Shown here: positions 4,348 through 54,380 of the stretch, in pieces
Numbering within the stretch: position 1 is the stretch's first letter
Layout: each line of letters starts with the position of its first letter
DNA from: Actinomycetes bacterium
GTDB lineage: Bacteria; Actinomycetota; Acidimicrobiia; Acidimicrobiales; Ilumatobacteraceae
Assembly (NCBI GenBank): GCA_025356335.1
Contig: JANXUF010000033.1
Span: 1 to 64,000, forward strand
Direction of reading: 5' to 3'
Length of the DNA stretch: 64,000 bases
Position numbers and translations under genes: made by a program
Notes under the pieces: generated by a model
The model's database searches: none
Told to the model about the DNA's origin: nothing
The model's input: the letters and a program-made list of their open reading frames with translations, nothing else

Positions 4348-5778
<1,431 letters not shown>

Positions 5779-5903
5779 CACTCGCTCGACGATGCCTGTC
5801 GCCGTCACCGGATTTCCGCCCCGCCATCACGGAATCCATGTGACTGCGACGCACGTCGTGGCAAATTTCCGTCCTGTCAGCGTGTTCTGCAAGGGTTGAC
5901 CGA

Positions 5904-19542: not shown

Positions 19543-19577
19543 GGGAGAATGGTCGCGATGAATGCGACCATTCTCCC
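19543..19577 (+). promoter_or_regulatory. Hairpin burying the RBS and start codon of tetR
   Basis: GGGAGAATGGTCGC and GCGACCATTCTCCC form a perfect 14-bp stem around the loop GATGAAT. The RBS GGGAG is in the left arm, and ATG 19558 is in the loop. It may limit translation of the regulator, terminate transporter mRNA, or be an operator in DNA form. Confidence 0.65.
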
Positions 19578-42033: not shown

Positions 42034-42082
42034 GTCGCTGTCGGCAGACGTCGTATTTTGCGCTACTTCTGCCGACAGCGAC
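42034..42082. ncRNA. Conserved-loop hairpin element, copy 1
   Basis: A perfect 15-bp stem, GTCGCTGTCGGCAGA with TCTGCCGACAGCGAC, encloses the 19-nt loop CGTCGTATTTTGCGCTACT. The bases just outside do not pair. It lies between the tRNA-Arg 3' end and coaBC. A second element at 50368-50416 has the same stem length and loop length, 13 of 19 loop bases identical, and a different but fully compensated stem. Function is unknown. Confidence 0.6.
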
Positions 42083-42102
42083 CGCACGCCGAAGCGACAT
42101 GG

Positions 42103-42175
42103 CGCCTCCGGAGAGACTCGAACTCCCAACCGACCGGGTAGAAACCGGTTGCTCTATCCATTGAGCTACGGAGGC
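42103..42175 (-). tRNA. tRNA-Arg (anticodon TCT)
   Basis: The minus strand folds as a 73-nt cloverleaf: acceptor GCCTCCG/CGGAGGC, D arm GCTC-AATGGATA-GAGC, anticodon stem ACCGG/CCGGT with loop TTTCTAC (anticodon TCT, reading AGA), T arm GGGAG-TTCGAGT-CTCTC. The 3' CCA is not encoded. It is flanked by coaBC and cinA; the hairpin element at 42034-42082 follows its 3' end. Confidence 0.95.
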
Positions 42176-50367: not shown

Positions 50368-50416
50368 GACGCAGGCACGAGAGGTCGCATTTTCTGCAAC
50401 ATCTCGTGCCTGCGTC
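50368..50416. ncRNA. Conserved-loop hairpin element, copy 2
   Basis: A perfect 15-bp stem, GACGCAGGCACGAGA with TCTCGTGCCTGCGTC, encloses the 19-nt loop GGTCGCATTTTCTGCAACA. It sits between the ftsK start and the end of the lipoprotein gene upstream. See the copy at 42034-42082, with which it shares stem and loop lengths and the GTCG-ATTTT-GC-AC loop core. Confidence 0.6.
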
Positions 50417-50447: not shown

Positions 50448-51104
50448 TCAGTCGCTGAGGATGCCGGTGACGGTCGTGCCGTCGACGGCGAGGCCGACGA
50501 TGAACTTGGCCTGCTTGGCCCCCTCGACGTACAAGTGCCACACGAACCCGTCCGTGCTGTTGCTGATCAGCACCACCCTGGCGATCGTCGCTCCGGGGAG
50601 TTGTGCGCTGAGCAGGGTCTGGAAGCCGGCGATCTTCTCGAGGTTCACCGTGTCGAGCGAAAAGGTGACTGCCCCTTGCTCCTGCGGCGTCGGCGATGCT
50701 GGAGGACTGAGGGTGCCCGATCGATAGAGGTATGCGAGCTCCGTGCCGTCGCCCTTGGCGACGAACAGGTTGACGTTCTGCACATCGACGTTGATTTCGG
50801 TGTACCGCTGAGGACCACCCAGCGCCTGCTCGACCGCCTTGACCGCCGGTTGGACATCGGTGAGCCTGACCGACGTCTGGCCGACAGCCGTCGCCGCCGA
50901 ATTCCCGGGTGCCGCTGGTGCCGTTCCCAGCGGTGCCCCCGCACGCGTCGTCGAGGCCGAACCATCGAGGCCCCCGAGGCTCACGACGAAAGACGTCGTC
51001 GTCGAGCCTCCACTGGACGATGACGAACCCGAACAGCCCGCGCCGACGACGATCGACGCTGCGACGAACGCTGCGGCTCCTCGGGCGCCGATCCGCCAGG
51101 GCAT
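50448..51104 (-). CDS. Lipoprotein of unknown function
   Basis: 218 residues from ATG 51104. Signal and lipobox: AAFVAASIVVGAGC, followed by a Ser/Thr-rich tether. The soluble part has YTEINVDVQNVNLFVAKGDG and FVWHLYVEGAKQAKFIVGLA; no family is recognised. The ATG overlaps the stop of the tiny upstream ORF in a TGATG junction. Longer ORF starts at 51464 would overlap rnj and are rejected. Confidence 0.7.
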   Translation of the reverse strand: MPWRIGARGAAAFVAASIVVGAGCSGSSSSSGGSTTTSFVVSLGGLDGSASTTRAGAPLGTAPAAPGNSAATAVGQTSVRLTDVQPAVKAVEQALGGPQRYTEINVDVQNVNLFVAKGDGTELAYLYRSGTLSPPASPTPQEQGAVTFSLDTVNLEKIAGFQTLLSAQLPGATIARVVLISNSTDGFVWHLYVEGAKQAKFIVGLAVDGTTVTGILSD

Positions 51105-53892: not shown

Positions 53893-54089
53893 CCGTCTGT
53901 CCTTCCGTTCACGGCCGCCGATGTGGCCGGCAATCGTGTGCTCGTGTGGAGCACCTAGCTGAGAATCTTCGAGCACCATCGTGGCCGATGGACGTGCAGC
54001 ATCCTCAAACATATTCGTTTCGATCGACCCAGGATTGGCACAGCGGTTCCAATCGACCTGCTCGCCCCCTCCACCGCTTCGGCGTCCAG

Positions 54090-54380
54090 CGCGCGGTCAC
54101 CCCGCCACCGCGGAATCCACGTGACCACGACACCTGCCGTACCCGCGCGGTCACCCCGACTCCGCCATCGCCCAATCCACGTGACCACGACACCTCCCGT
54201 CCCCGCGCGGTCACCCCGAATCCGCCACTGCGGAATCCACGTGACCACGACACCTCCCGTCCCCGCGCGGTCACCCCGAATCCGCCACTGCGGAATCCAC
54301 GTGACCACGACACCTCCCGTCCCCGCGCGGTCACCCCGACTCCGCCATTGCGGAATCCACGTGACCACGACAACTGCCGC
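54090..54380. repeat. 60-bp minisatellite (four full units and two partial)
   Basis: Units at 54121, 54181, 54241 and 54301 are 60 bp each; the second and third are identical, the first and fourth differ by a few bases. Each unit has GTGACC at its start and GGTCAC 28 bp later, so this hexamer alternates in orientation along the array, and CACGTG spans each unit junction. All six frames stay open because the unit lacks stops, but no frame looks like a real protein. The stretch 53893-54423 contains nothing else convincing. Confidence 0.85.

Follow-up and report, generated by a model that had tools for sequence, protein, structure and literature searches.

Dispersed 49-bp palindromes in an Ilumatobacteraceae genome as probable solo copies from small mobile elements with an AbiEi-DUF559 gene

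Known palindromic systems and the two hairpins of the window

Short palindromes in many copies behind genes, forming genome-specific families and accompanied by a flanked gene of nuclease type, are known from the REP/RAYT (TnpA-REP) systems and their REPINs. Small genes with a Vsr/DUF559-like domain behave as mobile DNA in the case of the Vsr-like and EDxHD homing endonucleases, EDxHD enzymes being linked to Vsr-like domains. Furthermore, REP-like palindromes without RAYT are a recorded puzzle: CGTC-tagged and untagged families without a known transposase lie between convergent and unidirectional ORFs (PMC3733652). In the type IV toxin-antitoxin system of Streptococcus agalactiae, AbiEi binds, as two monomers, two 23-bp inverted repeats that are 3 bp apart (PMC7319586), and the insertion sequence IS1272 targets inverted repeats without target duplication (PMC5678879).

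The palindromes described here resemble each of these in part. Their layout and placement are REP/RAYT-like; however, the enzyme is AbiEi-like with a DUF559 domain instead of a Y1 HUH transposase, the unit is 49 bp with 23-bp arms, and no GTAG tag is present, and because the defining enzyme and tag are missing, the family is not classed as REP. The stems of the CGTC units are 8-9 bp long and are accompanied by an unpaired tag, while a candidate partner gene was found for the palindromes in this genome. With the AbiEi operators they share two 23-bp inverted repeats 3 bp apart and an AbiEi-like protein part, but about 80 copies are scattered behind genes, the protein has a nuclease-like domain, and no toxin partner was seen by eye. 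Unlike the homing endonucleases, the element lies outside any intron, intein or host gene and is bounded by whole palindromes. IS1272 is likewise mobile DNA associated with inverted repeats and lacking target duplications, but it is an insertion sequence with a transposase, whereas here the palindromes form both ends and are mostly direct. Judged from the sequences, the hairpins are probably solo copies of a 49-bp palindrome from REP/RAYT-like small mobile elements with an unrelated enzyme.

The window, i.e., the whole stretch of DNA analysed (64,000 nt; contig JANXUF010000033.1, positions 1 to 64,000), has the following features, with the register of arms and centre taken from the family alignment:

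50368..50416, minus strand: solo palindrome of subtype A (49 bp) upstream of ftsK, 31 nt past the end of a minus-strand ORF (stop codon at 50448)
50368..50390: first 23-bp arm of the subtype A copy
50391..50393: 3-nt centre of the subtype A copy
50394..50416: second 23-bp arm of the subtype A copy
42034..42082, minus strand: solo palindrome of subtype B (49 bp) upstream of coaBC, 17 nt past the 3′ end of tRNA-Arg
42034..42056: first 23-bp arm of the subtype B copy
42060..42082: second 23-bp arm of the subtype B copy
42100-42175, minus strand: tRNA-Arg beside the subtype B copy
start 41944, minus strand: coaBC beside the subtype B copy
5798..5850: putative third copy, decayed, following the stop codon of a plus-strand gene (4348-5778); weak model match (E = 0.004)

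A sequence-only reading of this DNA had given both hairpins the same architecture, and indeed each has 15 perfect outer pairs with 19 nt between them. Their folds are far more stable than those of dinucleotide shuffles (z -4.1 to -9.9), and the strict loop pattern GTCGYATTTTNNGCNAC matches only these two hairpins in the whole 5.57-Mb genome, where its reversed control has 0 matches. The supposed conserved 19-nt loop, on the other hand, is no loop: this segment makes up the inner third of a palindrome of 49 nt and is paired in most copies of the family. The inner arms of both window copies are decayed, and the copies are members of two different subtypes, the one at 50368 being 80% identical to the right palindrome of a nuclease element on contig C58 of the same genome, and the one at 42034 80% identical to the left palindrome of a nuclease element on contig C24. 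The proximity to ftsK pointed out in that reading is incidental, ftsK being merely one of many unrelated genes behind which copies are found. An Rfam scan of the window gave a tRNA as the sole match, leaving the palindromes without a curated RNA family.

The palindrome family and its subtypes

Covariance models were built stepwise from 2, then 46, then 63 copies. The model from the two window copies found about 47 hairpins in the 5.57-Mb genome, nearly all exactly 49 nt long, and the model from 63 copies found about 80 places, almost all exactly 49 nt. With these further copies, the proposal of a hairpin family, for which a lack of other copies had been named as the refutation, is borne out. 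The genome is a draft (5.57 Mb, 93.7% complete) with home-made gene calls, and about 400 kb of its stretches plus the window served as the background for comparisons.

The layout of most copies is 23 bp + 3 nt + 23 bp. The main subtypes are A (GACGCAGGCAC...), B (GTCGCTGTCGGC...) and D (CCCGAGTCAC...), besides which there is a mixed remainder, and all have the frame and several invariant letters in common. When 65 copies of this genome, including some of the element palindromes themselves, are classified by the nearest element (see below), 24 go with C58 (A), 12 with C24 (B), 17 with C152/C13 (D), and 12 with none of these.

The sequence-only reading had also noticed compensated changes in the stems, and had taken them as the mark of a structure under selection, either in RNA or as a protein-recognised cruciform. 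Pairs do covary across all copies, and the source is the differences between subtypes; the compensation apparent between the window copies arises because one of these is of subtype B and the other of subtype A. Among the 23 copies of subtype A, the covariation of 0.161 is not in excess of that in shuffles (0.147, sd 0.012), the pairing is 87.1% compared with 86.3% in shuffles, and particular positions are almost fixed in both arms. Each arm is accordingly kept as a sequence, as a protein-binding site would be, and not as a helix in which the letters may vary. Because of this strong per-position conservation without compensatory change beyond shuffles, the palindrome resembles DNA recognised by a protein more than a structured RNA. 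Thus the protein-recognised option is favoured, and compensatory evolution within a subtype was not demonstrated. An RNA regulatory element was rejected as a candidate, there being no Rfam match, no fixed distance to starts and no within-subtype covariation.

The flanks of the palindromes have no conserved letters and no unpaired GTAG or CGTC tag. In a test for a DNA uptake sequence, in which the arm pattern was sought as lone half-sites, all sites but one fell within palindromes. Among 84,980 genomes, the subtype A pattern had 7 scattered single matches in unrelated phyla, which were taken as chance, and a common word across the order, CAGGCACCAGATGT, was rejected as not widespread.

Palindrome-flanked AbiEi-DUF559 genes

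A complete element of about 1.05 kb consists of a palindrome, one gene of about 303 codons and a second palindrome. Elements span about 1.03-1.27 kb, with about 40-54 nt between the upstream palindrome and the start codon, and the pairs of palindromes are mostly direct (16 direct, 5 inverted). The encoded protein of ~303 aa has an AbiEi-like N-terminal part (matches to PADLOC AbiEi profiles down to 8e-20) and a C-terminal DUF559 nuclease-like domain (Pfam matches with E of 4e-5 to 1.5e-3); the former is a predicted winged-helix DNA-binding part, and the latter is Vsr/PD-(D/E)XK-like. Residues E203, D235, E245 and H252 are conserved in the protein alignment. To our knowledge, no function is assigned to DUF559 proteins, and by sequence the element protein could be matched to no solved structure. 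Beside the elements no toxin partner (DUF1814 nucleotidyltransferase, AbiEii-like) is evident by eye, the neighbours being other genes. Four elements of this genome are as follows:

contig C58: element with subtype A palindromes
contig C24: element with subtype B palindromes
contig C152: element with subtype D palindromes
contig C13: element with subtype D palindromes

On contig C13, a nuclease gene (L207) is bordered on either side by two palindromes, which form nearly identical pairs.

Homologues were collected by protein profile search in 15 genomes, and most flanked genes were found by protein similarity alone. By one counting rule, two similar palindromes flank 16 of the 31 genes of the family and none of 355 other genes; in the remaining 15 family genes the pair is decayed, one-sided or absent by the same rule. 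The family thus has a co-occurring protein, of the kind that the sequence-only reading had advised looking for. Each paralogue carries its own palindrome sequence, two of which match the window copies, and palindrome similarity tracks protein similarity (Mantel r 0.31; 14/5000 permutations). Moreover, gene remnants adjoin palindromes: the palindrome at C25:37184 abuts a gene fragment, and a flanked pseudogene is found at C29. This suggests that some solo copies are leftovers of elements.

Among 121 genomes of the same taxonomic family, to which all elements examined belong, the 49-nt palindrome is found in G255 (about 19 sites), G229 (6), G233 (3), G240 and G013, with genome-specific sequences. 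Its presence is patchy across other genera of the family, and in the same-genus genomes G020 and G010 no palindromes of this type were found; a few palindromes occur in G240 and G015, where no close homologue of the gene was found. In G233, two palindromes enclose a gene of 304 aa, and the same-genus G255 is without the whole element at the orthologous site, where flanks with 83-89% identity to those of G233 are 39 nt apart. The junction at this sole empty site is imprecise, i.e., 39 nt in G255 compared with 28 nt + element + 92 nt in G233. Three homologues of the G233 gene are present elsewhere in G255, one of them also between two palindromes. In viral contigs, phages and plasmids no close homologues were found, and short DUF559 matches occurred in 3 plasmids only.

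Other repeats were noticed in the relatives. In G229 (L195-L199), a common stretch of ~60 nt adjoins four of the six palindromes on their 3′ side. It contains another hairpin of terminator-like form (ACTCCC..GGGAGT and a T run), so that the whole is a longer composite repeat. G015 (L080, L081, L123, L128, L132-L135) has a different dispersed palindrome family around GGTGCCTGGCACC / CAGGCACCAGATGTC, and a close AbiEi-DUF559 homologue was not found in this genome. G008 has three CCCATGGGCGCGG...CCGCGCCCATGGG palindromes (L118, L122, L127), some with an inner GATGTTGCAG motif, which are unlike the palindromes beside the two nuclease genes that G008 carries.

Placement of solo copies and candidate mechanisms

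Solo copies are typically located 5-50 nt downstream of stop codons. A stop codon is at most 60 nt away in 50 of the 56 solo copies with a neighbouring stop; for random intergenic placements the share is 51%. The 69 solo copies comprise 25 in convergent, 31 in tandem and 7 in divergent gene settings, plus 6 that overlap with called genes; random intergenic placements are 13% convergent, 59% tandem and 28% divergent, so that the convergent setting (25/63 intergenic copies) is over-represented and the divergent one (7/63) avoided. The orientation of the palindrome is independent of the strand of the adjacent gene. No T-rich tract is found beside the palindromes (mean 1.9 T/12 nt on the 3′ side, 1.8 A/12 nt on the 5′ side), and no target-site duplication is seen at solo copies or elements.

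Such placement, together with very stable folds and one window copy directly after a tRNA gene, is also what might be expected of RNA hairpins that act as terminators or stabilisers of transcripts, in a repeated family that has been duplicated because it is useful. This explanation is improbable: the T-rich tract is missing, orientation does not follow the gene strand, subtype A has strong letter conservation in place of covariation, and the fixed length and the flanking of one particular gene family are left unexplained. Somewhat more improbable still is that the protein is a regulator or antitoxin of AbiEi type and the palindromes its regulon. The 23 + 3 + 23 bp geometry is that of the AbiEi operator and the upstream palindrome precedes the start codon by about 40-54 nt, yet solo copies avoid promoters and sit behind stops, a second copy stands behind the gene, and by eye the elements have no AbiEii-like toxin gene next to them. 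REP sequences of the classical kind, with a RAYT to move them, would likewise be imperfect palindromes in many copies behind genes with a flanked cognate gene (PMC3733652), and the sequence-only reading, which found that REP did not fit, is in this respect corrected, since the layout is REP-like. At the enzyme level it was right: the best Y1_Tnp (PF01797) match in this genome (93.7% complete) reaches 12 bits against a curated cut-off of 23. As the conserved GTAG or CGTC tag is also missing, the arms are 23 bp instead of 5-13 bp, and the flanked gene is AbiEi/DUF559-like, a RAYT origin is hardly credible.

The strongest competitor, though still unlikely, is a selfish gene of homing type, in which the DUF559 nuclease cuts solo palindromes and the gene is copied in by repair, no new palindromes being made. 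EDxHD is listed among homing endonuclease families (PMC6083498), and the mostly direct repeats flanking the gene would fit; by itself, however, homing leaves the about 80 palindromes unexplained, as well as the orthologous site without any palindrome. Two kinds of insertion sequence were rejected as well, one with the arms as split ends, because half-arms occur only inside palindromes, and one of DDE type, the palindromes being mostly direct and target duplication absent.

The preferred reading, small mobile elements with palindromic ends, can be put as a sequence of steps. The first is observed: genes of the family stand between palindromes, with a version particular to each gene, and solo copies are scattered downstream of genes. 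Since the operator geometry is identical and the flanked genes carry an AbiEi-like part, two protein monomers would bind the two 23-bp arms, by analogy with AbiEi on its operator, and the upstream palindrome may also autoregulate the gene. The DUF559 domain would then cut the palindrome or the DNA next to it, and the element and its palindrome would spread through repair or transposition. Recombination between direct palindromes, or decay of the gene, would finally leave solo copies at tolerated sites, i.e., the 3′ ends of genes, where as a side effect the hairpin may help to end or stabilise transcripts. There is about an even chance that a class of bacterial mobile elements with AbiEi-operator-like palindrome ends has AbiEi-DUF559 genes as its autonomous members, that protein and palindrome diverge together in it, and that its elements seed bacterial 3′ ends with solo palindromes to give REP-like repeats without RAYT.

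If the palindrome and the nuclease are indeed a cognate pair, this would be the first explanation for RAYT-less REP-like palindromes and for DUF559 proteins. Cognate pairs would supply matched protein-DNA partners that are readily testable, and the elements would offer naturally diverged specificities for a long (23 + 3 + 23 bp) DNA site. Combined literature searches found no description of such palindrome-gene elements, and none of the searched papers that mention DUF559 concerns such palindromes by title and abstract; the novelty of the element is provisional, because subscription papers and transposon databases were outside the search scope.

Two more repeats were noticed in the window. At 19543-19577, between convergent genes, lies a hairpin of 14 perfect base pairs and a 7-nt loop (GGGAGAATGGTCGC...GCGACCATTCTCCC), which is not a member of the palindrome family. 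At 54005-54370, between called genes, a block of short direct repeats closely follows the stop codon of a surface-protein-like ORF of 1449 aa; in open frames the block can be read as a repeat of ~20 residues (RDHDTSRPRAVTPNPPLRNP).
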